Positions 2,481-21,515 of a stretch of DNA of 64,000 nucleotides are shown here, piece by piece (positions within the stretch are counted from its first letter, which is position 1; each line of letters opens with the position of its first letter). The notes below the pieces were generated by a model. The model searched no databases. It was not told the origin of the DNA and saw only the letters and a program-made list of their open reading frames with translations. The stretch covers positions 1 to 64,000 of the forward strand of contig JAKPQE010000170.1 of the NCBI GenBank assembly GCA_029572955.1, given 5' to 3'. This stretch comes from Pseudomonadota bacterium (GTDB lineage: Bacteria > Pseudomonadota > Alphaproteobacteria > Rhizobiales > JAKPQE01). The position numbers and the translations under genes are program-made.

Positions 2481-2494
2481 GGAGGCCGAGACCC

Positions 2495-3742: not shown

Positions 3743-3754
3743 GGGGGCGGGGCC

Positions 3755-4792: not shown

Positions 4793-4810
4793 GAGCCGAG
4801 GACGAGATCC

Positions 4811-6436
4811 ATGGAACATCCTTATGCGATTACCCTCGACGTCGGCACGTCGCTGGCCAACCACACCGGCAGCTGGCGCACCAAGCGCCCGGTCTATGTC
4901 GACCGCCTGCCGCCCTGCAACGCGGCCTGTCCGGCCGGCGAGAACATCCAGGCCTGGCTGTTCCGCGCCGAGAGCGGCGACTACGAGGCGGCGTGGCGCA
5001 AGCTGACCGAGAACAACCCGCTGCCGGCGATCATGGGCCGCGTCTGCTATCACCCGTGCCAGGGCGCCTGTAACCGGGGCGAGGTCGACGAGGCGGTCGG
5101 CATCAACTCGGTCGAGCGCTTTCTCGGCGACGAGGCGCTGAAGCAGGGCTGGGGCTTCGACAAACCGGAGACGGAGAGCGGCAAGCGCGTGCTCATCGTC
5201 GGTGCCGGACCGTCTGGGCTCTCGGCCGCCTATCACCTGCGCCGGCTCGGCCATCAGGTGACGATCAAGGAAGCCGGGCCGCTGCCCGGCGGCATGATGC
5301 GCTTCGGCATTCCGAAATACCGCCTGCCGCGCGAGATCATCGACGGCGAGGTGAAACGCATCACCGACATGGGCGTTGCCATCGAATATGGCGTGAAGGT
5401 CGACGACATCGCCGAAACCATGAGGGAGGGCAGGTTCGACGCCGCCTTCCTCGCCGTCGGCGCCCACATCGCCAAGCGCGCCTACATCCCGGCCGGTGCG
5501 GCGGCGCGCGTCCTCGACGCGGTCTCGGTGCTGCACTCCATGGAAGACGGCGAAAAGCCGATGCTCGGCCGCCGCGTCGTCGTCTATGGCGGCGGCAACA
5601 CGGCGCTCGACGTTGCCCGCACCGCCAAGCGCCTCGGCGCCGAGGAGGCGGTGATCGTCTACCGGCGCACCCGCGACAAGATGCCGGCGCACGACTTCGA
5701 GCTCGAGGAGGCGCTGCAGGAAGGCGTGCTCGTCAAGTGGCTCTCGACCATCCGCAATGTCGAGGAGGGCGAGATCACGGTGGAGCGCATGGAGCTCGAC
5801 GCGAGCGGCTTCCCGCAGCCGACCGGCGAGATCGAGACGCTCGCGACCGATTCCGTCGTCCTCGCGCTCGGCCAGGACGTCGACCTCTCCCTGCTCGACA
5901 ACGTGCCGGGGCTCGAGATCGACAAGGGCGTCGTCAAGGTCGGGCCGAACATGATGACCGGCGCGCCGGGCATCTTCGCCGGCGGCGACATGGTGCCCTC
6001 GGAGCGCACGGTGACGGTCGCGGTCGGCCACGGCAAGAAGGCGGCCCGCCACATCGACGCCTGGCTTCGCGGCGAGACCTACGAGCCGGCCGAGAAGCAC
6101 GAGCTGGCGAGCTTCGACAAGCTCAACACCTGGTACTACGACGACGCGCCGCGCACGATCCAGCCGGTGCTCGCCGACGTGCGCCGCACCTCGACCTTCG
6201 AGGAGGTGGTCGGCGGCCTCGACGAGACCAACGCGCTCTACGAGGCGCGGCGGTGCCTGTCGTGCGGCAACTGCTTCGAATGCGACAATTGCTACGGGGT
6301 GTGTCCGGACAATTCGGTGATCAAGCTCGGGCCCGGCAATCGCTTCAAGTTCAACTACGACTACTGCAAGGGCTGCGGCGTCTGCGCCGCCGAATGTCCG
6401 TGCGGCGCGATCCAGATGGTGCCCGAGGCGATCTGA
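4811..6436 (+). CDS. GltD-like FAD/NAD(P)H oxidoreductase with C-terminal 2[4Fe-4S] ferredoxin (POR delta-like)
   Basis: This 541-residue fusion has three parts. Residues about 30-90 contain a GltD/DPYD-type cluster domain (C36 and C40, then V-C-Y-H-P-C-Q-G-A-C). Residues about 125-460 are a two-dinucleotide-fold flavoprotein with G-A-G-P-S-G for FAD, P-G-G-M-M-R-F-G-I-P, a second G-G-G-N-T-A-L-D-V-A-R fold for NAD(P)H, and the FAD-closing A-G-G-D-M. Residues about 482-541 are a bacterial 8Fe ferredoxin with two cysteine sets (C-L-S-C-G-N-C ... and C-K-G-C-G-V-C-A-A-E-C-P). It takes the place of the small PorD ferredoxin, so electrons from 2-oxoacid oxidation could pass to NAD(P)+ or back. 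The direction is inferred. Confidence 0.85.
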   Translation: MEHPYAITLDVGTSLANHTGSWRTKRPVYVDRLPPCNAACPAGENIQAWLFRAESGDYEAAWRKLTENNPLPAIMGRVCYHPCQGACNRGEVDEAVGINSVERFLGDEALKQGWGFDKPETESGKRVLIVGAGPSGLSAAYHLRRLGHQVTIKEAGPLPGGMMRFGIPKYRLPREIIDGEVKRITDMGVAIEYGVKVDDIAETMREGRFDAAFLAVGAHIAKRAYIPAGAAARVLDAVSVLHSMEDGEKPMLGRRVVVYGGGNTALDVARTAKRLGAEEAVIVYRRTRDKMPAHDFELEEALQEGVLVKWLSTIRNVEEGEITVERMELDASGFPQPTGEIETLATDSVVLALGQDVDLSLLDNVPGLEIDKGVVKVGPNMMTGAPGIFAGGDMVPSERTVTVAVGHGKKAARHIDAWLRGETYEPAEKHELASFDKLNTWYYDDAPRTIQPVLADVRRTSTFEEVVGGLDETNALYEARRCLSCGNCFECDNCYGVCPDNSVIKLGPGNRFKFNYDYCKGCGVCAAECPCGAIQMVPEAI

Positions 6437-7148: not shown

Positions 7149-8633
7149 TCAGACCAGACGACAGGCGGCGGCCTCGGGCTCGGCTCCGTAGAAGCCGGCG
7201 TATTCGCCGCTCCGGGTGGCGAGGTCGGCGACGCTGTCGAGAATGAAGTCGACCGTCGCGTCGTCCATCACGAAGCTGAGGTTGAGGCGGACGAAGCCGG
7301 GCTTCTCGCGCTCGTCGCCGGCGAGGATGCGCTCGCGGATGTGGGCCGACCGGCCGTCGTCGATGGCGAGGAGGCGATGGGCGTAAGGGCCGGCGCAGAC
7401 GCAGCCGCCGCGGGTCTGGATGCCGTAGGCATCGCTCAGCATGCGCGTGAAGGTCTGCTGGTGGACGAAGCCGCCGGCGTCGTCGCGCACCCGGAAGGAG
7501 AAGATCGGCAGGCGATCCCTGTGGTGCGGCGCGAGGATGTCGAGGTTGCGGCAATCCTGCCAGCGGGCGAAGGCGCGCCCGGTCAGTTCGCGGTCGCGCC
7601 GGTCGATGAAGTCCTCGCCGACCGCTTCCTTGACGAGGAAGGCGAGGGCGGCGCGGATGTCGCCGAGGATGTTCGGCGTGCCGGCTTCCTCGCGGTCCTC
7701 GATGGTGTCGCTGTAGTCGTGAAAGAGCGAGGAGACGAACTTCACCGTGCCGCCGCCCGGCCAGGACGGCGTGCGCGCTGCAAGGGCGTCGCGGCGGATG
7801 ACGAGCACGCCGGAAGCGCCGGGACCGCCGAGGAACTTGTGCGGCGAGAGGGCGATCGCGTCGATCGAGAGGCCGGGCGCCGGGGCCATGCGGATCGGCA
7901 GATAGGGGCCGCCGCCGGCATAGTCCCAGACGGCGAGGGCGCCGTGCGCCTTCAGCACCGTGGTGACGGCAACGACGTCGCTGACGATGCCGGTGACGTT
8001 CGAGGCGGCCGAAAAGGCGCCGATCTTCAGCGGCGTGTCGCGATGGGCGGCGAGCACGCCGGCGATCATGGCGAGGTCCGGTCCGCCTTCCGGGGCTTCG
8101 GCGATCTCCACGACCTTGGCGCCGCTCTCGCGCCAGGGCAGGAGGTTGGAATGGTGCTCGTAAGGGCCGACGAGGACGAGCGGCGTCTCGCCCCGACGCA
8201 CGGCGACGTCGACGCCGAGGAGATGGACGAGCCGGTTGAGGCCGGCGGTCGCGCCCGAGCCGGCGAAGATCACCGCGTGTTCCGTCGTGGCGCCGCAGCC
8301 GCGCGCCACCACCTTGCGCGCCTCTTCGCGAAGGCGCGTGGTGCGCGCGCCGCAGAACGAGGATTCGGTGTGGCTGTTGGCGTAGGTCGGCAGCACCTCG
8401 TCGAGAATGAAGGCCTCGACCTGGCGCAGGGCACGGCCGGAAGCGACATAGTCGGCATAGACGAGCTTTCGCGCGCCGAACGGCCCGTCGACCATGACGT
8501 TGCCACCGACGAGGCCGCCGCGCAGGGCGGCCAGCACATCGCCTTCGGCAAGCTGCTCGGAAAACCGCCGGTACGGGTTCGGCTCGAGGCCGGAGCCGCC
8601 GCGCCGATCGGTCGTTTCGCAATCCTGAGGCAT
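7149..8633 (-). CDS. Class V aminotransferase, cysteine desulfurase/selenocysteine lyase-like
   Basis: This 494-residue enzyme has the fold type I PLP layout of the NifS/CsdA family. Visible marks are Y-A-N-S-H-T-E-S-S near the N-terminus, G-S-G-A-T-A-G-L-N-R for phosphate binding, E-H-H-S-N-L-L-P-W, D-Y-A-G-G-G-P-Y, the PLP-lysine motif S-P-H-K-F-L-G-G-P-G, and a late G-G-C-V-C-A-G-P-Y. The cysteines in the last motif sit where desulfurases keep their catalytic cysteine loop. It is longer than housekeeping IscS (about 400) because of a C-terminal extension. It is divergent from an Lrp regulator. Supplying sulfur to the Fe-S-rich neighbours is plausible but unproven; another aminotransfer or lyase reaction is possible. 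Confidence 0.8.
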   Translation of the reverse strand: MPQDCETTDRRGGSGLEPNPYRRFSEQLAEGDVLAALRGGLVGGNVMVDGPFGARKLVYADYVASGRALRQVEAFILDEVLPTYANSHTESSFCGARTTRLREEARKVVARGCGATTEHAVIFAGSGATAGLNRLVHLLGVDVAVRRGETPLVLVGPYEHHSNLLPWRESGAKVVEIAEAPEGGPDLAMIAGVLAAHRDTPLKIGAFSAASNVTGIVSDVVAVTTVLKAHGALAVWDYAGGGPYLPIRMAPAPGLSIDAIALSPHKFLGGPGASGVLVIRRDALAARTPSWPGGGTVKFVSSLFHDYSDTIEDREEAGTPNILGDIRAALAFLVKEAVGEDFIDRRDRELTGRAFARWQDCRNLDILAPHHRDRLPIFSFRVRDDAGGFVHQQTFTRMLSDAYGIQTRGGCVCAGPYAHRLLAIDDGRSAHIRERILAGDEREKPGFVRLNLSFVMDDATVDFILDSVADLATRSGEYAGFYGAEPEAAACRLV

Positions 8634-9330: not shown

Positions 9331-9849
9331 TCAGACGCCGCCGGAATGGATGATCTCGTAATAGGTCTTCTCGAGTTCGCCCTTGTGGCGCAGTTCCTCG
9401 TCGGCGAGGAAGCGGAAGAGGTCGCGCAGCGGCCCGTCCGGCGTCGTCTCGGCAAGGGCCGAATACTGCTTGTAGGCGGCGTCCTCGCGGCCCATGGCGT
9501 ATTGCAGGATCGCCTGGTCGTCCGGATTGTCGTCGAGCTTCGGCATCTGCACGAAATCGGCGAACTTGTGGTCCTCCGGCGGGGTGGCGATGAGGTCCTT
9601 GAGGTGGGCGACCGTGTCGGGATGGTCGCGCACGCCGGTGAAGAGGTCGTAGTGGCGCTGCTCCTCCTCGGCGAGTTCCTCGACGAGGGCGCGCATCGGC
9701 TTCGACACCTTCGGGGCGAGCGCCGCATAGAAGGTGCGCGCCGTGTCCTCGAAACCGATCGCGGTGTTCAGCACCTCTTCGAGCGTCTTTGCCGAGGCGA
9801 GGGCGGCATGGGCACCCGAATGGCCTTCGGTCTTCTCGGTGTCGGTCAT
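9331..9849 (-). CDS. Ferritin-like (rubrerythrin-type) diiron protein
   Basis: The 172-residue protein is a four-helix ferritin-like domain with diiron ligand candidates E34, E63-x-x-H66, E122 and E152-x-x-H155, the two E-x-x-H pairs expected in rubrerythrin-like and bacterioferritin-like proteins. No rubredoxin C-x-x-C domain is attached. It is the last gene of the Mbx-like operon and its ATG overlaps the stop of the preceding fusion gene by four bases (ATGA), so it is translationally coupled. A role in scavenging peroxide or oxygen, or in holding iron for the oxygen-sensitive Fe-S enzymes, is inferred. Confidence 0.85.
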   Translation of the reverse strand: MTDTEKTEGHSGAHAALASAKTLEEVLNTAIGFEDTARTFYAALAPKVSKPMRALVEELAEEEQRHYDLFTGVRDHPDTVAHLKDLIATPPEDHKFADFVQMPKLDDNPDDQAILQYAMGREDAAYKQYSALAETTPDGPLRDLFRFLADEELRHKGELEKTYYEIIHSGGV

Positions 9850-11678
9850 TCCGCGGCCTCCAGTTTGCTGCTTCCTCCGCCGAGGAAGGTGTCGATGGCA
9901 CTCGCCGTGCGGTGGCCGGCGGCGACGGCATGGATGACGTCCGGGCCCTCGACCATGTCGCCGGCGGCAAACAGCCAGGGAACGGCGGTCGAGCCGTCAC
10001 GGCCGATCTTGATGCGGCCACGTTCCCATTCGAGCGCTTCGGTCACGTCCTTGCCGAGATAGGAGACGTCGGTCGCCTGGCCGATGGCCTCGACGACCAT
10101 GGCGGCCGGATGGAGGATCACGTCGGCCTCGTCGTATTTCGGATGGAAACGGCCTTCCTCGTCGAAGATCGACAGGCAGAGCACGGTTTCGAGGCCCTTG
10201 ATGGCGCCGTTCTCGACGACGATCTGTTTCGGGCCGCGGCCGGTGAAGACCTTGACGCCTTCCTCGCCGCCCTCGATCACCTCTTCCTCGTCGGCGAGCA
10301 TGCGGTCGCGCGCCTCGAGGGCGACGAGCGTGACGTCGACCTTGCCGAAGGTCTTCTTCTGCAGGCGGGCGAGGCTGCGGGCGATGTCGAAGGCGACGTT
10401 GCCGCCGCCGATCACCGCGGCGCTCTCCTTCAGATCGAAGCTCTCGCCGGCGGTGACGCGGGCGAGGAGGTCGACGGCCGAGAAGACGCCCGGCTGGTCG
10501 CTGCCCGGAATGCGGGTCGAGCGGCCCTGGCCGAGGCCGGTCGCGACCACGACGGCGTCGTTGTCGGACCTGAGGGCATCGAAGCCGATGTCGCGGCCGA
10601 TCGCCTTGCCGCATTCGATGGCAACGCCGGCCGCCTCGATGACGGCGATGTCGGCGTCGAGCTTGTCGTAGGGCAGGCGGTATTCGGGAATGCCGTAGCG
10701 CATCATGCCGCCGGGCTTTTCCTTCGATTCGTAGACGGTCACGGCGTGGCCGAGCTTGGCAAGATCGAAGGCGGTCGTGAGGCCGGCCGGGCCGGAACCG
10801 ACGATCGCGACCTTCTTGCCGCTCTTCTTCTTGGCCTTGTCGGCAAGGGCGATCTTCTTGACCTTGGCCGGCGAGACGGCGTCGATGGCGTAGCGCTTCA
10901 GCCAGCGGATGGCGACGGGTTCACCGCGGCGGCCGATCGAGCAGGCGGTCTCGCAGCGATGGGTGCAGACGCGGCCGCAGACCTGCGGGAAGGGATTGGT
11001 GCGGTAGATCTCCTCGACTGCCTTCTCGACATTGCCTTCCCAGATGGCGCGGATGTACTGCGGCGCGTGCATGTTGGTCGGGCAGGCCTCGTGGCACATG
11101 CCGCACTGGATGCAGCGCGAGGCCTCGATGAGGGCGGTGTGGGCGTCGAAGCCGTCGACGATCTCGTCGAAATTGTCGCTGCGCGCCTCGGGCTCGACCT
11201 CGCCCATCGGCTGGCGCTTCAGGTCGAGGAGGTCGGAATCCTCGTTCTTGCCCCAGCCGATCGGATAGCCGAGGCCGTGCATGCCCTTCTCGTCCGGCAG
11301 GATGAAGAAGGTGTTCATCTCGCGGCTGATGTGGATGTATTCGCGCGACAGGGCGATCGAGCCGGTCGGGCAGATGTCGACGCAGAGCGCGCACCAGCAG
11401 CAGCGGCCGTAGTCGATCGCCGGACGGCGCGGCTTGATGCCGTTCTTGTGGTCCTCCGGCAGATCCGGGATGTGGACCATGCTGATCGCTTCGTTGTCGC
11501 AGATCTCCGCGCAGGTGCCGCAGCCGATGCATTTCTCCCAGTCGTTGACATGGAAGCCCCGATAGTTCTCGGCGGCCGGGCGCGGCTCCATCGGCAGGGT
11601 CACGGGCTCGCGGAAAAGGAAGGACAGAGCCTTCAACGGCCTCAGGAAGCTGCCTTTGTTCTTCGGTGTGACGTCCAT
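9846..11678 (-). CDS. NuoI/MbxN-type ferredoxin fused to a GltD/NfnB-like FAD-NAD(P)H module
   Basis: Numbered from the ATG at 11678 (GAGG in front), the 610-residue protein has two [4Fe-4S] sets typical of NuoI/MbxN (C50, C53, C56, C60; and C93 or C94, C96, C99, C103), then a GltD/DPYD-type cluster region (C189, C192, C195, C199 and C234, C238, C242, C246). A flavoprotein follows with G-S-G-P-A-G for FAD at 294-299, P-G-G-M-M-R-Y-G-I-P, the dinucleotide fold G-G-G-N-V-A-F-D-I-A-R and the closing A-A-G-D-M. An upstream TTG at 11732 is possible but lacks a ribosome site. It occupies the place of MbxN in the operon, so it may dock NAD(P)H or ferredoxin electrons directly onto the membrane complex. 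Confidence 0.85.
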   Translation of the reverse strand: MDVTPKNKGSFLRPLKALSFLFREPVTLPMEPRPAAENYRGFHVNDWEKCIGCGTCAEICDNEAISMVHIPDLPEDHKNGIKPRRPAIDYGRCCWCALCVDICPTGSIALSREYIHISREMNTFFILPDEKGMHGLGYPIGWGKNEDSDLLDLKRQPMGEVEPEARSDNFDEIVDGFDAHTALIEASRCIQCGMCHEACPTNMHAPQYIRAIWEGNVEKAVEEIYRTNPFPQVCGRVCTHRCETACSIGRRGEPVAIRWLKRYAIDAVSPAKVKKIALADKAKKKSGKKVAIVGSGPAGLTTAFDLAKLGHAVTVYESKEKPGGMMRYGIPEYRLPYDKLDADIAVIEAAGVAIECGKAIGRDIGFDALRSDNDAVVVATGLGQGRSTRIPGSDQPGVFSAVDLLARVTAGESFDLKESAAVIGGGNVAFDIARSLARLQKKTFGKVDVTLVALEARDRMLADEEEVIEGGEEGVKVFTGRGPKQIVVENGAIKGLETVLCLSIFDEEGRFHPKYDEADVILHPAAMVVEAIGQATDVSYLGKDVTEALEWERGRIKIGRDGSTAVPWLFAAGDMVEGPDVIHAVAAGHRTASAIDTFLGGGSSKLEAAE

Positions 11679-11783: not shown

Positions 11784-12926
11784 CTAGCGATCGACCTCAG
11801 GCGGGCAGGCGTCGAGCGAGAACATGATCTGGGCGATGTCCTCGAGGCGGCCGCGGGCGAGCAGCCGTTCGAGCACCTGCACCGCATGCATCTGGGACGG
11901 CCCGCGCACATGCACACGCCAGGGCTTGGCGCCGCCGGTCGAGACGACGAAGAAGCCGAGCTCGCCCTTGGAGGATTCGACCCGGGCGAAGGTATCGCCG
12001 GCCGGGATGTTCCAGGCGAGCGGATTGGGCAGCGGACAGCGCACCGGGCCCTCGATATGGGGCAGCCGGGCGATGACCTGGCGCAGGATCTTGATCGATT
12101 CCAGCACCTCGGCCTTGCGCACCATCATGCGGGCGAGGGCGTCGCCGTCCTTCATCGTCGGCACTTCGAACTCGAGTTCGGGATAGACGAGGTAAGGATC
12201 GTCGCGGCGCACGTCGAAGGGCAGGCCGGAGGCCCGGAGGTTCGGGCCGGTGACGCCCCAGGCGAGCGCCTCCTCGGCGCTGATCGTGCCGGTGCCGGTG
12301 GCGCGGTTGATGACGACGGTGTTCGAGAAGAACAGGTCCTCGAAGTCCGGCAGGCGGCTTTCGAGGTCGTCGAGCAGCGCGGCGAGCCGGTCGAGCAGGC
12401 CCTCGGGCAGGTCGCGGCGGACGCCGCCCGGGGTGATGTACATGTGGTAGATGCGGGCGCCGGTGATCTCCTCGAACAGGTCGAGGAAGAGATCGCGCAT
12501 CGACACGCCCCAGAACATGTTGGTGTAGAAGCCGATCGTCGCGGCGTTGCCGCCGAAGGTGAAGAGATGGGCGCAGATACGCGACATCTCCAGCATCATG
12601 ACGCGGATCCACTGGGCGCGGGCCGGCACCTCGAGACCGCCGAGCTGTTCGACGGCGCGCGAGTAGCACTCCTCCATCGGCACCGGATCGGGCACGCAGA
12701 TGCGCGGCACGAGGGCGACGTTCTGGATCCAGAGCCGCTCCTCCATGATCTTCTCGAAGCCGCGATGCAGGTAGCCGCCGTCGGCGATCGCCTCCTGCAC
12801 CTCGTCGCCCTTGAGACGGACGCGAATGGCGTAGTTGCCCTCGATGCCCGGATGGTTCGGGCCGAAATAGAGCTCGTATTCGTGGCTCGGCGGATGGCTG
12901 ACCGGACGGTAGTTCTCGGGTCTCAT
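11784..12926 (-). CDS. mbxL: NuoD/MbxL-like large subunit (49-kDa type), partial loss of [NiFe] ligands
   Basis: The ATG at 12926 overlaps the NuoC-like stop by four bases; the longer frame upstream lies inside that gene. The 380-residue protein aligns with the complex I 49-kDa/group 4 hydrogenase large subunit: H-x-x-x-E-L-Y-F-G-P-N-H-P near the start, G-Y-L-H-R-G-F-E-K, N-V-x-L-V-P-R-I-C, and a C-terminus D-A-C-P-P-E-V-D-R. In [NiFe] enzymes the two metal pairs are C-x-x-C. Here they read C77-V-P-D80 and C374-P-P-E377, so one cysteine of each pair is replaced by an acidic residue. A [NiFe] site is therefore unlikely, as in MBX and complex I relatives. Confidence 0.88.
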   Translation of the reverse strand: MRPENYRPVSHPPSHEYELYFGPNHPGIEGNYAIRVRLKGDEVQEAIADGGYLHRGFEKIMEERLWIQNVALVPRICVPDPVPMEECYSRAVEQLGGLEVPARAQWIRVMMLEMSRICAHLFTFGGNAATIGFYTNMFWGVSMRDLFLDLFEEITGARIYHMYITPGGVRRDLPEGLLDRLAALLDDLESRLPDFEDLFFSNTVVINRATGTGTISAEEALAWGVTGPNLRASGLPFDVRRDDPYLVYPELEFEVPTMKDGDALARMMVRKAEVLESIKILRQVIARLPHIEGPVRCPLPNPLAWNIPAGDTFARVESSKGELGFFVVSTGGAKPWRVHVRGPSQMHAVQVLERLLARGRLEDIAQIMFSLDACPPEVDR

Positions 12927-13465
12927 TTCTCGACACCTCCGCCCTTGGCCTCGACGTCCTTCAGCCAGTCGGGCTGATAGTCGACCCACTCGTAGGTCTG
13001 GTTGACGTACTCGCGGGTGTTGAACGACTTCAGCATCGGCGGCGGGCCGCCCCAGCTGGTCAGAATGAAGGGCCGGAGATTCGGCGCGCCGACGAAGACG
13101 ACGCCGAACATCTCGTGGATGTCGCGCTCGTAGAAGCCGGCCGGGGTGTGGATGTCGTAGACCGAGACGAAGCGGCCGGGATTGCGCGGAATGGTGATGT
13201 GGGCCGAGGCGAGGGTTTTACGCTCGTAGGACCAGACGTGATAGACGAGCTCGAACTCGTCGGTCTCGGGCCAGTCGACGCAGGAAATCGCCGACAGGTG
13301 GATGAAGCCGAGGCGGCCCTTGAGGAGTTCGAGGAGCGCCGGCAGGCTGTCGCGGGCAACGTCGATGCGCAGCCGCCGCTCGCCCTGCTTGGTCACCTTG
13401 ATGCCGGGGATCTCGTGCTGGATCGTGTCGACGATGGTCGCCGGGGTGCCGGTTTCGACGGTCAT
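12923..13465 (-). CDS. mbxK: NuoC/MbxK-like subunit (30-kDa type)
   Basis: The chosen ATG at 13465 overlaps the NuoB-like stop by four bases (ATGA) and gives 180 residues. The C-terminal half shows the NuoC hallmark P-A-G-F-Y-E-R-D-I-H-E-M-F-G-V-V-F and then N-L-R-P-F-I-L, with an N-terminal alpha/beta domain containing S-C-V-D-W. The protein has no cofactor of its own and links the NuoB- and NuoD-like subunits in the peripheral arm. The stop overlaps the next start, so B, C and D are made in fixed ratio. Confidence 0.9.
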   Translation of the reverse strand: MTVETGTPATIVDTIQHEIPGIKVTKQGERRLRIDVARDSLPALLELLKGRLGFIHLSAISCVDWPETDEFELVYHVWSYERKTLASAHITIPRNPGRFVSVYDIHTPAGFYERDIHEMFGVVFVGAPNLRPFILTSWGGPPPMLKSFNTREYVNQTYEWVDYQPDWLKDVEAKGGGVEK

Positions 13466-14214
13466 GGCCGGCTCCTCTCGTTGCGACCGCGGGCCGGATA
13501 GAGTTCCGGCACCGTGTCGAGGGACCAGGTGGCGCGCTGATCGAGGAGCGCGGTGTGCTCGCCGGTCGTGCCGTTGCCGACATAGCCGTAGTGCTTGGCC
13601 TCGGCGACGACGTCGGTCGGGGTGTGCCAGTCCTGGCCGAAGAGGTTCATCTGGCGGCCGAGATAGGCATCGTAGTTGAGGTAGTAGTCCTGCCAGGCGG
13701 TTGCCTTGCCGGCGTCGATCTTGGCCATCAGGTCGAGGAACACCTGCTGGATGGCCTCGGGGCGCGGCATGCAGCCGGCGATGTAGCTGTCGACCGGAAT
13801 GTACTGGTCGAGGCGTTTCACCGTCGCATAGGAGTTCCAGTACATGCCGCCATTGATGGTGCACGAACCGAAGCCGACGACGTATTTCGGCGCCTGCATC
13901 TGCTCGTAGGAGAGGATGACGCGCTTCAGCGTCTTCACCGACAGGTAGCCGGTGATGAGCAGGAGGTCGGCCTGGCGCGGCGTGACCATCGGCGAGACAC
14001 CGACCCGCTCCATGTCGAAGCGGGAGGTGATGGTCGGCGGCAGCTCGATGGCGCCGCAGCCGGTGCAATAGTGCAGCACGAACAGCGAGCGGGAGCGGCA
14101 GTGATCCGCGAAATTGTCCATCACCTTGCGCAGCAGGCTTTTTTCCTCTGCGTCGGCAACCCGGCAGGTTTCCGGCTGGTCGGTGACGACAGGTACTTTT
14201 TCGGAGCCGGTCAT
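13462..14214 (-). CDS. mbxJ: NuoB/MbxJ-like [4Fe-4S] subunit
   Basis: This 250-residue subunit should carry the terminal (N2-like) [4Fe-4S] cluster. The four ligands are visible as Y-C-T-G-C-G-A-I-E (two cysteines), G-F-G-S-C-T-I-N-G-G and I-A-G-C-M-P-R-P-E. The C-x-x-C-G-x-I-E form at the first site is that of group 4 hydrogenases and MBX; complex I NuoB has adjacent cysteines. The C-terminal 70 residues beyond the conserved core are an extension. AAAGGA lies before the ATG, 19 bases after the NuoH-like gene. Confidence 0.9.
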   Translation of the reverse strand: MTGSEKVPVVTDQPETCRVADAEEKSLLRKVMDNFADHCRSRSLFVLHYCTGCGAIELPPTITSRFDMERVGVSPMVTPRQADLLLITGYLSVKTLKRVILSYEQMQAPKYVVGFGSCTINGGMYWNSYATVKRLDQYIPVDSYIAGCMPRPEAIQQVFLDLMAKIDAGKATAWQDYYLNYDAYLGRQMNLFGQDWHTPTDVVAEAKHYGYVGNGTTGEHTALLDQRATWSLDTVPELYPARGRNERSRP

Positions 14215-14233: not shown

Positions 14234-15136
14234 TCAATTCACTTTCAGCATCACGAAGGCGAGGCCGACGAGACCGATGGCGGTCGGCCAGCGCCACATC
14301 CAGCGGATGACGTCTTCGGTCTTGTAGCGGCCGAACACGTTGGTGATCGCCACCGAGATGAAGATCACCGCGGCCACCTTCGGCAGGAAGGTCAGCCACA
14401 TCTCGCCGCCGCCGAGGAACATCGTCACGTAGAGCACGCCGACGGTGTAGAACTGGAAGCACTGCATGACGAACAGCGCGCCCATGTACTTGCCGCTCAT
14501 CTCGACCATCGGGCCGGTGGCGATCTCGGCCGGGGCGATATAGAGCTCGAACGGCTCCTTGCCGAGCATGCCGTGCATGGCGATGAGGCCGGCGAAGGCG
14601 AGCAGCGGCATCGTGGTGACGCCCCAGGTCGACACGCCGCCTTCCTGCTGGATGCGCACGACGTCGATGAGGTTCGACGAGCCGTAGTGGATCAGCGCGC
14701 CGGCGATGACGACGACGAACGGCACGTCGTAGGCGAGCATCGAGGTCAGCGCGCGGCTGATGCCGATCGAGCCGTTCGGGTTGGCGCACGAGCCGACGCC
14801 GAGGGCGAGGCCGAGCATCGGCACCATCATGATGTAGACGAGGGTGACGAGATCGCCCTCTGCGGCGAGGCCGTCGAGGCCCGGCACCGGCAGGAAGATC
14901 TCGGCCGTGATGAAGCCGCCGAGCAGCATCATGATCGAGACGTCGTGCATCAGGCCATGGGAGATCTGCGTCTTCTTGGCGTAGAGCTTGACGATGTCGT
15001 AGATCGGCTGGAGCACCGGCGGGCCGACGCGGCGCTCGATCTTGGCGCGCACGCGGCGCGCCATGAGCACGAGCACCAGCCCGAACAGGAAGGCGATCAG
15101 CGGCATCAGGACCAGATCTGCGAAGAGTTCGAGCAT
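14234..15136 (-). CDS. mbxM: NuoH/MbxM-like membrane subunit
   Basis: The ATG at 15136, with GGAAAG eight bases before it, gives 300 residues; the longer frame upstream overlaps the preceding gene. It is a multi-spanning protein (about eight helices) of the complex I subunit 1 family, with R-R-V-G-P-P-V-L-Q-P-I-Y-D-I-V-K-L after the first helix and E-x-x-x-A-P-A-E-I-A-T-G-P-M-V-E-M-S-G in the acidic loop that forms the quinone/E-channel region in complex I. It anchors the peripheral arm to the antiporter-like subunits. Confidence 0.92.
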   Translation of the reverse strand: MLELFADLVLMPLIAFLFGLVLVLMARRVRAKIERRVGPPVLQPIYDIVKLYAKKTQISHGLMHDVSIMMLLGGFITAEIFLPVPGLDGLAAEGDLVTLVYIMMVPMLGLALGVGSCANPNGSIGISRALTSMLAYDVPFVVVIAGALIHYGSSNLIDVVRIQQEGGVSTWGVTTMPLLAFAGLIAMHGMLGKEPFELYIAPAEIATGPMVEMSGKYMGALFVMQCFQFYTVGVLYVTMFLGGGEMWLTFLPKVAAVIFISVAITNVFGRYKTEDVIRWMWRWPTAIGLVGLAFVMLKVN

Positions 15137-15138
15137 GA

Positions 15139-17019
15139 TCAGATCTTTCCGAAGAGGCCGACCCACAGGAGGCCGAGGGAGACGGCGACGAGCAGGTAGA
15201 ACGGCGTATGGGCAAAGCGGAAGACGCCGCCCGAGAGGTCGCCGAGGACGGCGACGAGGGTCTGCAGGCCGCGCTCCATCTTGACCACCCAGCCCCGGTA
15301 CCAGGGCCCGATGACACGGGCGAGGCCGGGATAGAATTCATGGCTGAAGTGGTAGCGGACGTCGGCCGACAGGAAGTGGCCACCGGCGTAGTTGTCGTAC
15401 TGGCTGACCTCCCAGCGGCGATTGCCGAGGAAGTAGAAGATCAGGGCGCCGACGCCGATGGCGGCGATCAGCACGCCGACCACCCAGAGCATGTTGAGCG
15501 AGCCGTTGGGCAGGTCGACGCCGCCGAGATGGTGCGGCTGCAGGCCGATGCCGAGGGCGCTCTGGGCGATGTCGACCATCGACAGGGCAAGGCCCGGCAT
15601 CCAGCCGGTGACGAAGCCGATTCCGGCGAGCGTCAGCATCGGCAGCAGCATCGACAGCGGCGCTTCCTTGACCTCGCGGTGCTCGAGGCGGAGCTGGCCG
15701 AGGAAGATGTTGTGGATCAGCTTGTAGACCGAGAGGATCGTGCCGAGCGTGCCGATGAAGGCGGCGATCAGCAGCAGCGGCTGGGCCGTGTTGAGCAGCG
15801 ACTTGTAGATCATCCACTTGGAGACGAAGCCGTTCATCGGCGGCAGGCCGGCAAGGCCGATGATGCCCATCAGGAGCGTGATGTAGGTGAAGGGCATGCG
15901 CGTGATGAGGCCGCCGAGCTCGTCGAGATCGGCCGTCTTGGTGCGGTGGACGACGGCGAAGACGGCGAGCATCAGCGCCATCTGGTAGGTCGCGTAGTTG
16001 AAGGTGTGCAGCAGGCCGCCGGCGAGGCCGAGGGGCGTGCCGACGAGGATGCCGAGCAGCATGTAGCCGCCCTGGCCGATACCGTGCCAGGCGAGCAGCA
16101 TGCGCGCGTCGGTCTGCATAAGGGCGATGTAGGTCGGCACGATCATGGTGATCGCGGTCAGCCACAGGAGCGCCGAGCGGGCATCGAACCAGGTGTAGGC
16201 GATGTCCATGCCGGCGAGCAGGGCCGGGCCCATCAGCTTGATCAGCACCAGCGTCAGGGCGAAGAGGCCCATGCGCGCCGAGACGGCGTTGAGGAAGCTC
16301 GAGGAGGCGCCGGGCGTGAAGGAATAGGCGGGTGCCTGCCAGAGATGGAACGGCACGATCGCCATCTTGACGCCGAAGCCGGCGGTGAAGAGGACGAACA
16401 GCACCCACTTGGTCGCCGTCGGCAGGTTCGGCACCGCCGCGGCGAAATCCTCGAAGGCGAAGCTGCCGGTGGCCGAGCGAACGATCAGGATGCCGGCAAA
16501 CAGCGCCATGGCGCCGGCCAGCGCGTAGAGCAGGTAGCGCAGGGCCGCGGTCGCGGCCGGGCCGCCGAGCTGGGTCATCATGGCGAAGGCCGCCCAGGAG
16601 ACGATTTCCCAGCCGATGAAGAGGCTGAGGAAGTCGCCGCTCGAGACGAGCAGCAGCATGGCGAGCACGTTGAGCGCCAGCGTGCCGTGCTGGATGCGCT
16701 TGTTGGGCTGCGCCTCGTTCCACTCGCCGCTCATGTACCAGGCGGCGAAGAAGCCGGCGCCGGTGGTGAGCAGGGCGAAGAACCAGCCGAGGCCGTCGAT
16801 CCGCCAGGTCATCGGATAGCCGAGGACGGTGAAGGCCATCGCCGAGGGGACGGCGGTCTCGCCGCCGGAAAGCGTCTGGCCGACGAGGACGACGATCACC
16901 GTCATTGCCGCATAGGCGGCCATGCCGATGTAGCCGGCGAAGCGGTTGGCGCCGAAGACATAGAGGCCGACGGTCGTCAGCAACGCCAGAACGAGCAGGG
17001 TGTCGAGCAAGCCGATCAC
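15139..17019 (-). CDS. NuoL/M-type antiporter-like subunit (MbxH'-like)
   Basis: The GTG at 17019 is preferred over the annotation-length frame because GGGAGG lies seven bases before it and it starts two bases after the MrpD stop. The 626-residue membrane protein belongs to the proton-conducting NuoL/M/N and MrpA/D family, with the helix-5 glutamate in F-I-G-W-E-I-V-S, the helix-7 lysine in F-G-V-K-M-A-I-V-P-F-H-L-W-Q-A-P, and H-x-F-N-Y-A in the discontinuous helix. It extends past the 14-helix core with an additional C-terminal membrane region. It is the second antiporter-like subunit of the operon, which distinguishes MBX-type from MBH-type clusters. Confidence 0.85.
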   Translation of the reverse strand: MIGLLDTLLVLALLTTVGLYVFGANRFAGYIGMAAYAAMTVIVVLVGQTLSGGETAVPSAMAFTVLGYPMTWRIDGLGWFFALLTTGAGFFAAWYMSGEWNEAQPNKRIQHGTLALNVLAMLLLVSSGDFLSLFIGWEIVSWAAFAMMTQLGGPAATAALRYLLYALAGAMALFAGILIVRSATGSFAFEDFAAAVPNLPTATKWVLFVLFTAGFGVKMAIVPFHLWQAPAYSFTPGASSSFLNAVSARMGLFALTLVLIKLMGPALLAGMDIAYTWFDARSALLWLTAITMIVPTYIALMQTDARMLLAWHGIGQGGYMLLGILVGTPLGLAGGLLHTFNYATYQMALMLAVFAVVHRTKTADLDELGGLITRMPFTYITLLMGIIGLAGLPPMNGFVSKWMIYKSLLNTAQPLLLIAAFIGTLGTILSVYKLIHNIFLGQLRLEHREVKEAPLSMLLPMLTLAGIGFVTGWMPGLALSMVDIAQSALGIGLQPHHLGGVDLPNGSLNMLWVVGVLIAAIGVGALIFYFLGNRRWEVSQYDNYAGGHFLSADVRYHFSHEFYPGLARVIGPWYRGWVVKMERGLQTLVAVLGDLSGGVFRFAHTPFYLLVAVSLGLLWVGLFGKI

Positions 17020-17020
17020 G

Positions 17021-18475
17021 TCACATCCTCCCAGGCAGGACGCGCGCCACATAGGACCCGGCGTCGGCGGCGCTGGCGGCGGCGCCCGAGAGGGCGGTGC
17101 CGATCGGCGCGACGAACAGGGTTGCGACGATGAGGATCACGCCGAGCAGCAAGGCCGGCGACAGATCCGAGAAGGCGAAGTGTGCGGGTTTGGCCCCGGC
17201 GGCGGGCTGCCAGATGCGGGCGACGACGCGGAAGAGGTAGGCCGCCTCGACGACGGTCGCGGCGAGTACCACGGCGGCGGCGAAGGCATAGGCTCCGCCG
17301 GCGTCGAAGGCGCCGCCGAGCAGCACGAGCTTCGCCCAGAAGCCGGGCAGCGGCGGAATGCCGATGATGCTGAGGGCGAGGAGCACGAAGAGGCCGGCCG
17401 CGGCGGGGGCGACCCTGGCGCCACCGGCGAGCCCGGCGAGCGGGCCGCGCCACTTGGCGGCGATGACGAAGAAGGCCGGCTTGACCACCGCGTGATGCAG
17501 CGCCACCGCGATCGCGGCGAGGATGCCGGCGGTGGCCGGGATCGTCAGAGCGAGGGCGACGAGGCCGAGCTGGGCGATCGAGGAATAGGCGAAGGTGCGG
17601 TTGAGGTCGCTGGCGCGATAGGCGGCGAACTCGCCGGCGACGATCGTCACGATGGCGACGGCCATCAGGAGGCTGATCGCGGCCGGATCGTGGAAGACCA
17701 GAACGAGGAGCCGGAGGATCACCACCATGGCGAGCTTGGAGACGACGCCGGCGAGGATCGCGGTGACCCGCATCGGGGCGGCGGCGTAGACCTCGGGCAC
17801 CCAGGTGTTGACCGGGAACAGCTCGGCCTTGACGCCGAAGCCGAGGACGAGGAGCAGGAACGCGGCAAGGCCGGTCGTGCCCGACAGCTTCTCGGGGGCG
17901 AGGCGGGCGATGTCGGCAAGGTTCAGCGTGCCGGCGGCGGCGTAGACGAGGCCGATGCCGATCAGCACCAGCGAGGAACCGAGGGCGCCGAGCACGAGAT
18001 AGCGCAGGGCGGCGCCGAAGCCGGCCTTGTCGCCGGACGAGGCGGCGAGGCCGTAGGACGCGACGGCGACGATCTCGTAGAAGACGAAGATGTTGAAGAG
18101 GTCGCCGGAAAGGACGAGGCCGGAGCCGCCGGCAACGAGCAGCAGCGTCAGCGTGTAGGCCTTGACGCCGCCATGCTCGGCGCGCGGCCAGAAGATCAGC
18201 GCGCCGACGGCGAGCACCGCGACGAACAGCGCGGCGAGGCGGTCGCCATAAAGAACGATGCCGAGCGGGGCTTCGAAGCCGCCGAGGGCGGTGACCGCCG
18301 CCTCGGTTCCGACGGCCGACCACAGGGTCCAGCCGAGGAAGATGTTGACGACGACGAGGACGATGCCGAGGGCGCGGGCGAGGCCGTCGCCGAAGCGGGC
18401 GACGAGCGGCAGCAGGAACGCGCCGAGCAGCGGCAGGACGATGGGCAGTACCAGGGTGTTGGCGCCGGAGGTCAT
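17021..18475 (-). CDS. mrpD: Mrp-type Na+/H+ antiporter subunit D homologue (MbxH-like)
   Basis: This 484-residue, about 14-helix protein is the MrpD/NuoN-like antiporter subunit. The conserved glutamate appears in F-V-F-Y-E-I-V-A-V-A-S-Y and the key lysines in F-G-V-K-A-E-L-F-P-V-N-T-W-V-P and H-H-A-V-V-K-P-A-F-F. Its ATG overlaps the MrpC stop by four bases. In Mrp complexes this subunit moves protons through the membrane; in MBX-like complexes it is thought to be driven by the attached redox arm. Confidence 0.9.
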   Translation of the reverse strand: MTSGANTLVLPIVLPLLGAFLLPLVARFGDGLARALGIVLVVVNIFLGWTLWSAVGTEAAVTALGGFEAPLGIVLYGDRLAALFVAVLAVGALIFWPRAEHGGVKAYTLTLLLVAGGSGLVLSGDLFNIFVFYEIVAVASYGLAASSGDKAGFGAALRYLVLGALGSSLVLIGIGLVYAAAGTLNLADIARLAPEKLSGTTGLAAFLLLVLGFGVKAELFPVNTWVPEVYAAAPMRVTAILAGVVSKLAMVVILRLLVLVFHDPAAISLLMAVAIVTIVAGEFAAYRASDLNRTFAYSSIAQLGLVALALTIPATAGILAAIAVALHHAVVKPAFFVIAAKWRGPLAGLAGGARVAPAAAGLFVLLALSIIGIPPLPGFWAKLVLLGGAFDAGGAYAFAAAVVLAATVVEAAYLFRVVARIWQPAAGAKPAHFAFSDLSPALLLGVILIVATLFVAPIGTALSGAAASAADAGSYVARVLPGRM

Positions 18476-18936
18476 GACGCGCTCCCCGCGTTGACGGTTT
18501 CACGGGCCGGCGTCCCGGCGACGGCGGTGCCGGCGGCCGGGGCGGCATCGGCCGGCTCGGCAGCGAGGAACTTCGCCACCTCGCGGGTGTCGAGCGTGCC
18601 GTAGGTTTCCTTGACGCGGATGAGAAGCGCGGCGGCGAGGGCGAGGACGCCGACGCCGATGACGATCGCGGTGAGCACCAGCGCCTGCGGCAGCGGGTCG
18701 ACCATCGGCACGTCGGTGACGCCGCCGACGATGATCGGGGCCGCCGCTTCCGGCCGGAAGCCGATCGCCACGAGGAACAGGTTGACGCCGCTCTCCACCA
18801 GGGCGAGGCCGAGGAGCACGCGCATCAGGTTGTAGCGGGCGACCATGGCGTAGATGCCGATGGCGATCAGCAGGATCGCGCCGCCATAGAGGGCCCGGCC
18901 GAGATATTCGGCGACGAGCAGTGCGTCGGGGCTCAT
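18472..18936 (-). CDS. mrpC: Mrp-type antiporter subunit C homologue (NuoK-like, MbxG-like)
   Basis: The ATG at 18936 overlaps the MrpB-like stop by four bases and gives 154 residues with three transmembrane helices of the NuoK/MrpC family (G-I-Y-A-M-V-A-R-Y-N-L-M-R-V-L-L-G-L-A-L-V-E-S-G-V-N-L, and P-L-P-Q-A-L-V-L-T-A-I-V-I-G). The membrane glutamate of the L-V-E-S motif is the conserved proton-path residue. A 35-residue Ala/Pro-rich C-terminal tail goes beyond the usual end of the family. Confidence 0.9.
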   Translation of the reverse strand: MSPDALLVAEYLGRALYGGAILLIAIGIYAMVARYNLMRVLLGLALVESGVNLFLVAIGFRPEAAAPIIVGGVTDVPMVDPLPQALVLTAIVIGVGVLALAAALLIRVKETYGTLDTREVAKFLAAEPADAAPAAGTAVAGTPARETVNAGSAS

Positions 18937-19631
18937 GACTTCCCTCCGACTTCGACGATGCGGGCCATGAGGCCGGCGAGTTCGGATCCGACCTTGAGGC
19001 CGATCGCCAGATAGAGCAGCGGCAGGCTGCCGGCCGAGAACAGGTCGCCGAGCGTGCCCTTGCCGAGGAAGGGCGTGAGGAACGCCTCGCCCCACATCAG
19101 GCTGGCAAGGCCGATGACGATGAAGGCGGTGCCGGCAAAGCCCTCGACGAGCGCCGCGGTCGAATGGTTGAGCGGGCTGGTCGGGCTGGCGAGCAGCGGG
19201 ATGAAGAAGGCCGCGGCCATGATGGCGCCGCCCTGGAAACCGCCGCCCGGGGTCAGATGGCCGTGCAGGATGATGTAGGCGCCGAGCACGACGAGGAACG
19301 GGAACAGGAGGTCGGCGGCGGCCTTGAGAATGAAGCCGCCGGGCGCCTTCGGCAGGTCGCCGGCGCCGGCACCCGACAGGATGAGGCCGGCGGCGGTGGC
19401 GGCGACGAAGAGGATCGTCACCTCGCCGAGGGTGTCGAAGCCGCGATAGCCGAGGAGGATCGCGGTGACGATGTTGGCGGCGCCGGTCTCGCCGGGAGCC
19501 CGCGAGACGATCTCCTGGCCGACCTGCATCGGCGCTGCGCCGAAGGGCAGGGCCTGGAACAGCGCGTAGAGCATCACCACCAGTCCGGCGAGGAAGAGGA
19601 GCGACGCGGTGGTGCGACCGTAGCCGTGCAT
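18933..19631 (-). CDS. mrpB: MbhE-MrpB fused membrane subunit
   Basis: The 232-residue protein joins two pieces. The first about 95 residues resemble MbhE / the C-terminal end of MrpA (N-I-V-T-A-I-L-L-G-Y-R-G-F-D-T-L-G-E-V-T-I-L-F). The rest is MrpB (Y-I-I-L-H-G-H-L-T-P-G-G-G-F-Q-G-G-A-I-M-A-A). Both parts are membrane-embedded, in about seven helices overall. There is no full-length MrpA in the operon; its C-terminal functions are covered here and in the DUF4040 gene before it, as in archaeal MBH/MBX. It starts nine bases after that gene. Confidence 0.85.
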   Translation of the reverse strand: MHGYGRTTASLLFLAGLVVMLYALFQALPFGAAPMQVGQEIVSRAPGETGAANIVTAILLGYRGFDTLGEVTILFVAATAAGLILSGAGAGDLPKAPGGFILKAAADLLFPFLVVLGAYIILHGHLTPGGGFQGGAIMAAAFFIPLLASPTSPLNHSTAALVEGFAGTAFIVIGLASLMWGEAFLTPFLGKGTLGDLFSAGSLPLLYLAIGLKVGSELAGLMARIVEVGGKS

Positions 19632-19640
19632 GGGACGCTC

Positions 19641-19901
19641 CTATTTCTTGCCGTCGCCGGCGTCGGACCGCCAGAGGCCGGTGCGACGCACGGTGAGTGC
19701 GAGGAGGACGCCGGAAAGCCCGGCCGCGACCGCGGCTTCGGCGAGCGCCACGTCGGGCGCGCGCAGCAACGCGAAGATGACGGCAAGGGCGAGCGAGACG
19801 ACCGAAACGGCGGCGACCGCGGCAAGGTAGCTGCGCAGGAACACCGTCAGCAGGGCGGCGGCGATCATCACCACAACGGCGAGAATGACGAGCCAGAGCA
19901 T
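19641..19901 (-). CDS. DUF4040/MbhD-like small membrane subunit
   Basis: This 86-residue protein with three transmembrane helices corresponds to MbhD (DUF4040), a small piece homologous to part of MrpA, with A-L-L-R-A-P-D-V-A-L-A-E-A-A-V-A-A-G as its conserved core including the membrane-embedded acidic residues. Its ATG shares one base with the MrpG stop (TGATG), so the two are translationally coupled. Confidence 0.85.
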   Translation of the reverse strand: MLWLVILAVVVMIAAALLTVFLRSYLAAVAAVSVVSLALAVIFALLRAPDVALAEAAVAAGLSGVLLALTVRRTGLWRSDAGDGKK

Positions 19902-20206
19902 CACACGGTCTCCTCGTCTTCGGCCTGGTGCCAGGGGCGCAGGCCCGTGGCGAGCGCGGCGCGGGCGATGATCGAGGAGCCGACCGGCGAGGTCACCAGC
20001 ACGAAGACGGCGAGCACCACGAGCTTGGCCCACCAGTCCGGGTGATGGAAGAAGACGCCGATCAGCACCGACAGTGCGCCGAGCGTCGAGCCCTTGGTGC
20101 CGGTCTGGATGCGATTGAAGACGTCGGGCATGCGCACCATGCCGAGGGCGGCAAGGCACAGGAACACCGCGCCGACGAGGAGGAAGATGTCGCCGATGAC
20201 TGTCAT
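19901..20206 (-). CDS. mrpG: Mrp-type antiporter subunit G homologue (MbxC-like)
   Basis: The 101-residue protein has the three helices and the R-M-P-D-V-F-N-R-I-Q-T-G-T-K-G-S-T-L-G motif of MrpG/MnhG/PhaG. It starts 12 bases after MrpF with a GAGGGAGAG ribosome site. It is a structural part of the sodium-path side of Mrp-type complexes. Confidence 0.92.
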   Translation of the reverse strand: MTVIGDIFLLVGAVFLCLAALGMVRMPDVFNRIQTGTKGSTLGALSVLIGVFFHHPDWWAKLVVLAVFVLVTSPVGSSIIARAALATGLRPWHQAEDEETV

Positions 20207-20218
20207 GACCTCTCTCCC

Positions 20219-20491
20219 TCAGGAGCGCTTTTCGAGGGCGCGGGCGATCGCCACGACGCCGACGAAGGACAGGGCGCCGAAGACCAGCGCGATGTCGAGG
20301 ACGATGGCGCTGTCCTGGACGAGGGCCAGCCACACCAGCGCGGCGGTGGTGATGATCGTCAGGATGTCGGCGGCGACGACGCGGTCGGCGACCGTCGGGC
20401 CGAGGACGAGGCGGGCGGCGCCGAGAAGCACGGCAATGCCGAGCAGCGCCACGGCGATGCCGCCGAGGATGCCGATCTCGAGACCCATCAT
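20219..20491 (-). CDS. mrpF: Mrp-type antiporter subunit F homologue (MbxB-like)
   Basis: Beginning at the first of two adjacent ATGs at 20491, which overlaps the MrpE stop by four bases, the product has 90 residues and three helices, with the MrpF pattern G-P-T-V-A-D-R-V-V-A-A-D-I-L. The long open frame that continues upstream lies inside mrpE and is not used. Confidence 0.9.
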   Translation of the reverse strand: MMGLEIGILGGIAVALLGIAVLLGAARLVLGPTVADRVVAADILTIITTAALVWLALVQDSAIVLDIALVFGALSFVGVVAIARALEKRS

Positions 20492-21057
20492 TTCAGGAAC
20501 TCCTTGAGGACCTTCTCGAAGCCGGCGACGATTTCGCGCGTCGCGGTCTCGAGGTCCGTGCCGGGGGTGGCGTCGATCCAGTGGATCAGCAACTCCTGGC
20601 CGTCGAGGTCGACGGTCAGGGTGCCCGGCGTCAGCGTGATGGAATTGGCCAGCCACAGCTTGCCGAGGTCGGAGTGCAGCTCGGTGTGCACCCTGACGAC
20701 CGCCGGCCGGATCGCCATGCCCGGGGTCACGACACGGCGCGCGACGTCGAAGTTGGCGAAGATCAGCGCCTTGAAGAAGGTGAAGAAGTAGCGGCCGAGA
20801 TGCAGCGGCAGCAACGGCGTCAGCATGACGTCGTCGAGCCATTGCAGATGGCGGATCGAGATGGCCGCGGTGCCGGCAGCGACAAGAATACCGACGATGA
20901 TCTCCTGCACCGCAAGGGTTCCGGTAAGCAGGATCCAGACGAACAGCAGTCCGGCAAACGTCATCGCAAAGCGGCGGGTCATGCGACCGCCGCCGAATAC
21001 GGCAACAGCGCCGGCGTCATCTCCGGTCGCAGATGATTCGTGGGGATTAGTCGACAT
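20488..21057 (-). CDS. mrpE: Mrp-type antiporter subunit E homologue (MbxA-like), first gene of the operon
   Basis: The protein core (about 165 residues from M-T-R-R-F-A-M-T at 20982) is MrpE/MnhE: two or three N-terminal helices, then a soluble part with N-S-I-T-L-T-P-G-T-L-T-V-D and I-H-W-I-D-A. The true start is uncertain. The ATG at 21057 adds 25 residues of unconserved sequence with no clear ribosome site; 20982 would give the usual family length. As first gene it sets the operon promoter somewhere in the AT-rich region 21060-21240. Confidence 0.85.
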   Translation of the reverse strand: MSTNPHESSATGDDAGAVAVFGGGRMTRRFAMTFAGLLFVWILLTGTLAVQEIIVGILVAAGTAAISIRHLQWLDDVMLTPLLPLHLGRYFFTFFKALIFANFDVARRVVTPGMAIRPAVVRVHTELHSDLGKLWLANSITLTPGTLTVDLDGQELLIHWIDATPGTDLETATREIVAGFEKVLKEFLK

Positions 21058-21515
21058 AGATGGAATTTCCATTGGTATAGAACACAGTCCAAGGCGCGCG
21101 AATGCGGCCCCGAAATCGTGACTCAATGGCTCGACACAGCATGATTACGGTAAATTCGCCCGAAAGAACCGCACCACTCACCGATTCTCATTCCGGTACC
21201 TCTTATACGCCTTTCTTGCGAAAATTAGAATGACACAATTTGTGCAGTGCGAAACTTCGACGACATGGCTGCCATGCAGTAAAGGCGGGGCGTTTGGCAT
21301 GGCGCCGCAGGCGTCATAATCGAGCTGCGGTTTTTTCGTCTATTCAATGGGTTGAGGTAACGCGCTGCGGTCTTTCGACTGCTGGTCGTTGCCGTTCGCG
21401 GCCTCGCATGGCAGTTTGTAGCCACGTTTGAACATGCGTGGCGGACCAGTCGGCAGGGGCGTTGGAGCCCTGTCCCAGCGTCCAGACAGGGAGAAGACCC
21501 ATAGCGCCCCGACCG
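21058..21515. other. Intergenic region between the Mbx-like operon and the amylosucrase gene
   Basis: This divergent gap holds no supportable gene. It is more AT-rich than its surroundings, especially 21190-21250 and 21320-21360, and must contain the leftward promoter of the operon and the rightward promoter of amylosucrase. A TATAAG-like element on the minus strand near 21203-21208 is the only recognisable -10 candidate; no well-spaced -35 was found. A GTG at 21438 in frame with amylosucrase could extend that protein by 26 residues. Confidence 0.5.

Follow-up and report, generated by a model that had tools for sequence, protein, structure and literature searches.

A 64,000-nucleotide stretch of DNA (the window) from a Pseudomonadota bacterium of the order Rhizobiales carries an operon that resembles those of the MBX/MBS family of membrane complexes, at the end of which a NuoI-type ferredoxin and an NfnL/GltD-type flavoprotein are encoded as a single chain. 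This raises the question of whether the fused chain belongs to the membrane complex at all and, if so, which nucleotide and which electron partner the complex would use.

The fused subunit and its operon

The operon lies on the minus strand and runs from about 21.1 to 9.3 kb in the order MrpE, F, G, DUF4040, MrpB, C, D, a second antiporter subunit, NuoH, NuoB, NuoC, NuoD, the fusion, and, as the last gene, a rubrerythrin-like protein. Its features are listed below, with the one-to-one names of the small Mrp parts inferred from family matches.

20488..21126, minus strand: MbsA/MrpE-like subunit (PF01899; start uncertain)
20219..20485, minus strand: MbsB/MrpF-like subunit (PF04066)
19901..20206, minus strand: MbsC/MrpG-like subunit (PF03334)
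19641..19955, minus strand: MbsD-like DUF4040/MrpA-C-terminal subunit (start approximate)
18933..19631, minus strand: MbsE/MrpB-like subunit
18472..18936, minus strand: MbsG/MrpC-like subunit (start approximate)
17021..18475, minus strand: MbsH/MrpD-like antiporter subunit (top match 6u8y_H)
15139..17052, minus strand: MbsH'-like antiporter subunit (top match 6u8y_X)
14234..15136, minus strand: MbsM/NuoH-like membrane anchor (6u8y_M is the sole PDB match below 1e-15)
13462..14214, minus strand: MbsJ/NuoB-like subunit with a CTGCG motif (6u8y_J 201 bits, next 120)
12923..13465, minus strand: MbsK/NuoC-like subunit
11784..12926, minus strand: MbsL/NuoD-like subunit (6u8y_L 385 bits, next 258)
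9846..11678, minus strand: fused subunit of 610 aa, with an MbsN/NuoI-type dicluster ferredoxin (aa 1-130) and an NfnL/GltD-type domain for two [4Fe-4S] clusters, FAD and NAD (aa 150-601)
11289..11678, minus strand: MbsN/NuoI-like part of the fusion, with two [4Fe-4S] motifs (C50xxC53xxC56xxxC60 and C93..C96xxC99xxxC103)
9876..11231, minus strand: NfnL/GltD-like part of the fusion (aa 150-601), with cluster motifs C189xxC192xxC195xxxC199 and C234xxxC238xxxC242xxxC246, the FAD motif GSGPAG at 294, the NAD motif GGGNVA at 424, and E455 replacing the second R of YRR
9331..9849, minus strand: rubrerythrin-like di-iron protein with ExxH motifs, overlapping the fusion gene by 4 bases

Without the rubrerythrin-like gene, which comes next after the fusion in almost every proteobacterial MBX locus, the operon comprises 13 parts, with the fusion at the place of MbsN and no second NuoI. 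The top PDB match of NuoB, NuoD, NuoH, both antiporters, and the NuoI part is always the MBS of P. furiosus (6U8Y).

The first-pass annotation of this DNA had described the chain as a NuoI-type ferredoxin joined to a GltD/NfnB-like flavoprotein, and our analysis confirms this architecture. The reading frame is uninterrupted over 610 aa, its ATG at 11678 agrees with the starts of the homologs, and Fer4_7, Fer4_20, and Pyr_redox_2 are recognized as Pfam domains. The N-terminal 130 aa find MbsN (6u8y_N) as top PDB match (E 2.2e-27), while in the predicted model (pLDDT 86, pTM 0.83) the GltD part superimposes on NfnL (5jfc_L) with a Z score of 45.3 and an rmsd of 1.7 Å over 437 residues; this structural match spans aa 149-610, and the NuoI part was assigned from sequence. 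The two NuoI-type [4Fe-4S] sites of the earlier description stand, but the chain total has to be corrected to four [4Fe-4S] motifs, whose 16 cysteines are kept in the alignment of 41 homologs save for one row cut by a contig end. All four motifs, as well as the FAD and NAD sites, are predicted to be occupied by their cofactors.

The fusion is present in Pseudomonadota, Bacillota, Spirochaetota, Mycoplasmatota, Bacteroidota, and Bipolaricaulota, and this spread over six phyla shows that it is no assembly artifact. So far, the protein family is catalogued merely as “putative oxidoreductase”: the NCBIfam entry NF010590/PRK13984, which shares the domain layout of the fusion over the full length (match 7-600 of 611) and carries no assigned function, is matched with 841 bits, under the curated cut-off of 946, and PRK13984 is found above its cut-off in 1 of 14 control genomes. 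A search of mostly open-access literature for an account of the individual MBX genes of T. maritima yielded no text on a fused subunit; a GltD-fused MbxN may have been described elsewhere, for instance in Thermotogales.

Elsewhere in the window, a class V aminotransferase of the SufS/cysteine-desulfurase type, scoring below family cut-offs, is encoded near the operon (7149-8633, minus strand). On the plus strand, porC-porA-porB followed by a GltD-PorD fusion (1902-6436) would encode an NAD(P)-linked 2-oxoacid oxidoreductase similar to PadEFGHI, and this GltD-PorD fusion (4811-6436) retains an NADP-type YRR. A single 8213-aa reading frame (39296-63937, plus strand) combines RTX calcium-binding repeats with about 20 repeats of the cadherin/Ig-like type and resembles a giant surface adhesin, and a tRNA-Arg called by ARAGORN at 397-486 (plus strand) within a Met/Gly-rich reading frame (374-1051) is probably a false positive.

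Association of the fusion with the membrane complex

Synteny and co-occurrence support the proposal, already made in the first-pass annotation, that the fusion is the terminal subunit, at the MbsN/NuoI position, of an MBX/MBS-type complex. The succession of Mrp genes, nuoD, and the fusion recurs in loci from six phyla. When the NuoB-like protein was used as the sole query against 398 Pseudomonadota genomes, five further MBX-type NuoB genes were recovered (51-64% identity, one of them at a contig end), and all five loci continue with nuoC, nuoD, the fusion, and a rubrerythrin-like gene, with the fusion reading frame broken in one draft genome. No separate NuoI was found among the matches in the stretch examined at these five loci. 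In 12 Thiotrichaceae-type loci, the fusion lies away from nuoBCD, yet each of the 12 genomes encodes an MBX-type NuoB (71-76% identity), and 11 of them possess an ordinary complex I NuoB in addition. Moreover, the pairwise divergence of both halves of the fusion correlates with that of NuoD and NuoB (r 0.78-0.95), as is expected from co-inheritance, although this correlation on its own proves little.

Alternatively, the gene might merely be located in the operon and encode a soluble NADH-dependent Fe-S flavoprotein that functions on its own, for instance as a polysulfide or disulfide reductase, given that GltD-type proteins frequently act alone or beside soluble partners and that the fusion gene is unlinked from nuoBCD in Thiotrichaceae. 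We consider this very improbable: the sole NuoI of the operon sits in the fusion, this half matches MbsN best, the divergence of the fusion tracks that of NuoD and NuoB, and the fusion always accompanies an MBX NuoB where tested. An independent soluble gene product was rejected on the NuoB-first search and the co-occurrence.

The MBX genes of the 12 Thiotrichaceae loci are scattered, with mostly just the fusion and the rubrerythrin-like gene adjacent to each other; in two of them, nuoH is located some 6-7 kb downstream. A different arrangement was seen in MBX operons of other Pseudomonadota (L119-L122), where one reading frame of about 1050 aa stands in for the two antiporter genes and where NuoB has a GTGCG motif, without the cysteine equivalent to MbsJ C25.

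Nucleotide specificity and the coupling site

In NfnB of T. maritima, the phosphate of NADP rests on Y310-R311-R312, and this YRR motif decides between NADP and NAD in DsrL and NfnB: DsrL-2, which has the motif, uses NADP(H) only, whereas DsrL-1, which lacks it, prefers or requires NAD(H) (PMC7596348). The corresponding position of the fusion reads ALE (A453-L454-E455), with the Glu found in 39 of 41 homologs as well as in the five additional genomes of the NuoB-first search; the DsrL of the host, encoded elsewhere, has SLF. Because YRR is replaced by ALE, NAD(H) is predicted for the fusion, and its GltD half probably binds NADH. The NAD(P)H port originally suggested for the complex is retained as a pyridine-nucleotide port, while NADPH was rejected with the loss of YRR, following the precedent of DsrL and NfnB (PMC7596348).

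The same position bears on whether the chain could be an electron-bifurcating NfnL-like enzyme joined to a ferredoxin, as its fold, which is nearest to NfnL, might suggest. The missing YRR speaks against such a function, as do the absence of an NfnS partner from the operon and the exchange of the Glu that ligates the proximal cluster in NfnI (E117 in T. maritima numbering) for Lys261, which is invariant in the alignment, and we find bifurcation hardly credible.

We then considered the site at which electrons would leave the cluster chain. The proximal cluster of MBS has three cysteine ligands (MbsJ C28, C93, and C123) and acts as the catalyst itself, and the enzyme lacks the quinone residues H38/Y87 (PMC7684303). 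The NuoB-like protein of the window aligns with 6u8y_J without gaps across the motif and has the equivalents of C28, C93, and C123 as well as the shortened CxxC loop, and these three cysteines are retained in every aligned NuoB homolog. At the positions of H38 and Y87, the NuoD-like protein has E and V, and the Y87 equivalent is missing from every NuoD homolog aligned. Cysteines that are dispensable in MBS (MbsJ C25, MbsL C85 and C385) vary among the homologs, with the equivalents of C85 and C385 retained in the NuoD of the window. Some Bacillota homologs combine a CTGCC motif with an H38-like histidine, and the chemistry of their site may differ. Given an MBS-type site, with a three-cysteine cluster and no quinone residues, sulfane sulfur is expected to be the acceptor or donor of the coupled electrons, beyond a mere exchange between ferredoxin and NAD.

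These residues also weigh against an NADH:quinone oxidoreductase, that is, an alternative complex I in which a GltD module replaces NuoEFG. The homology of NuoBCDH supports a complex I-like reading, and the canonical complex I that is also encoded in the host genome implies that hosts of this type probably respire; however, this complex I is already encoded, several carriers of the fusion belong to largely fermentative lineages, and the tyrosine is lost from all homologs, which makes quinone reduction quite unlikely.

Somewhat less unlikely, though still improbable, is an ion-pumping ferredoxin:NAD+ oxidoreductase in which ferredoxin would bind the NuoI part and NAD the GltD part, leaving the sulfane site unused or vestigial. 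Such an enzyme would be in line with the NuoI/MbsN parts that take ferredoxin in MBS and MBH (PMC7684303), with the description of P. furiosus Mbx in older literature as a ferredoxin:NADP+ oxidoreductase (PMC6349859), and with the nearby porCAB set, which is in need of an electron sink. However, electrons exchanged between two sites of one fused chain would bypass the NuoB/NuoD coupling site, which is our main argument against this function; in addition, the three ligands of the catalytic cluster are preserved in all homologs, and Rnf is already present in the genome. The pumping ferredoxin:NAD(P)+ oxidoreductase of the first-pass annotation is therefore weakened on both the NADP(H) and the coupling side. 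Its other suggestion, that an ion gradient might push electrons up to ferredoxin for nitrogenase, was dropped: nifH is found about 13-15 kb away from rnfC and rnfD, on a contig other than that of the MBX operon, and since it lies near the host's own Rnf genes, a nitrogenase role of the complex is unnecessary.

Sulfur metabolism, proposed mechanism and known systems

The host has a dsr cluster, and its genome contains dsrA (split across two contigs), dsrB, E, F, H, C, M, K, L, and O. As the joint presence of dsrL-1 and oxidative dsr genes identifies a sulfur oxidizer (PMC7596348), we regard the host as one; no SoxB match above cut-off was found in its genome, and dsr was therefore used as the sulfur marker. 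Among 30 fusion-bearing proteobacterial genomes, 21 have dsrA above cut-off and three more have it in pieces. Within the host's class, dsrA occurs in 6/6 fusion carriers versus 4/288 sampled genomes without a full-length fusion, an association (Fisher p about 2e-10) that is weakened by relatedness and sampling. None of the 13 non-proteobacterial carriers has dsrA above cut-off, suggesting that, by this marker, the sulfur role is not universal.

Taken together, we lean toward a reversible, ion-coupled NADH:sulfane oxidoreductase, with the fusion as an MbsN equivalent that brings its own NADH dehydrogenase module, and regard this as somewhat probable; in more general terms, the pump probably transfers electrons between NADH and sulfur compounds, in either direction. 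The complex would be an Mrp-containing, ion-translocating machine of the MBX/MBS type, with the fusion at the MbsN position. We infer that electrons would run from NADH to FAD, over the two [4Fe-4S] clusters of the GltD part and the two of the NuoI part, to the three-cysteine proximal cluster in the NuoB-like subunit; there, polysulfide, persulfide, or another S-S bond would be reduced as the sulfane substrate. This redox step would be coupled, via the NuoH-like anchor and the antiporter subunits, to the translocation of Na+ or H+. A point against this reading is that soluble ferredoxin could nonetheless dock on the NuoI part.

The potentials of NADH (about -320 mV) and sulfane sulfur (about -260 mV) are close, so the machine should be reversible; the energy yield from NADH to polysulfide is small, such that forward pumping may be marginal and the direction may depend on the cell. 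In this host, NADH might serve to reduce sulfane sulfur, or else the ion gradient might be spent on raising electrons of reduced sulfur up to NAD+. It is tempting to speculate that the complex runs in reverse in sulfur-oxidizing proteobacteria, including the large sulfur bacteria, with a Na+ or H+ gradient driving electrons from sulfide, persulfides, or thiols at the Fe-S cluster to NAD+, a tentative idea that we think possible but doubtful. If true, the reversed complex would offer a direct, energetically cheap route to NADH that bypasses reverse electron flow at the quinone level.

Should the prediction hold, many dsr-type sulfur oxidizers (Thiomargarita, Beggiatoa relatives, Magnetospira, and Thiohalobacter, among others) would possess an ion-coupled valve linking sulfane sulfur to NADH, with bearing on NADH production by lithotrophs and on the mobilization of stored sulfur. 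In the Riftia symbiont, a putative Mrp-Mbx complex as such is co-expressed with rTCA genes (PMC11636981). The complex would also represent a second, independent NADH entry into a complex I-type machine, with a GltD/NfnL flavoprotein instead of NuoEFG and a sulfur site instead of quinone, and hence a test case for the modular evolution of complex I.

Among known systems, the MBS/MBX of P. furiosus (6U8Y, PMC7684303) shares with the operon 13 equivalent subunits, the three-cysteine motif, the loss of quinone and NiFe residues, and the Mrp module. However, its MbsN has 208 aa and receives electrons from ferredoxin, whereas the window encodes a 610-aa fusion of the NADH type; judged from its genes, the complex is a variant of MBX rather than MBS itself, since a GltD-type domain is joined to its MbsN part. 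NfnL (the alpha subunit of NfnI, 5JFC/5JCA) and GltD resemble aa 150-601 in their fold, their FAD and dinucleotide sites, and their cluster-binding N-domain, but the fusion has no NfnS or GltB partner, carries ALE for YRR and Lys for the Glu ligand, and has a NuoI domain attached. DsrL-1 (PMC7596348) is likewise a GltD-type Fe-S flavoprotein that has lost YRR and ties NAD(H) to sulfur metabolism; its extra dicluster ferredoxin is C-terminal, whereas that of the fusion is N-terminal, and DsrL partners with the soluble rDsrAB. Finally, respiratory complex I has in common with the predicted complex the NuoB/C/D/H/I core, NADH input, and ion pumping, but the latter would differ in its GltD-type NADH module (no NuoEFG was found in the operon), its Mrp-type membrane arm, and its lack of quinone residues.
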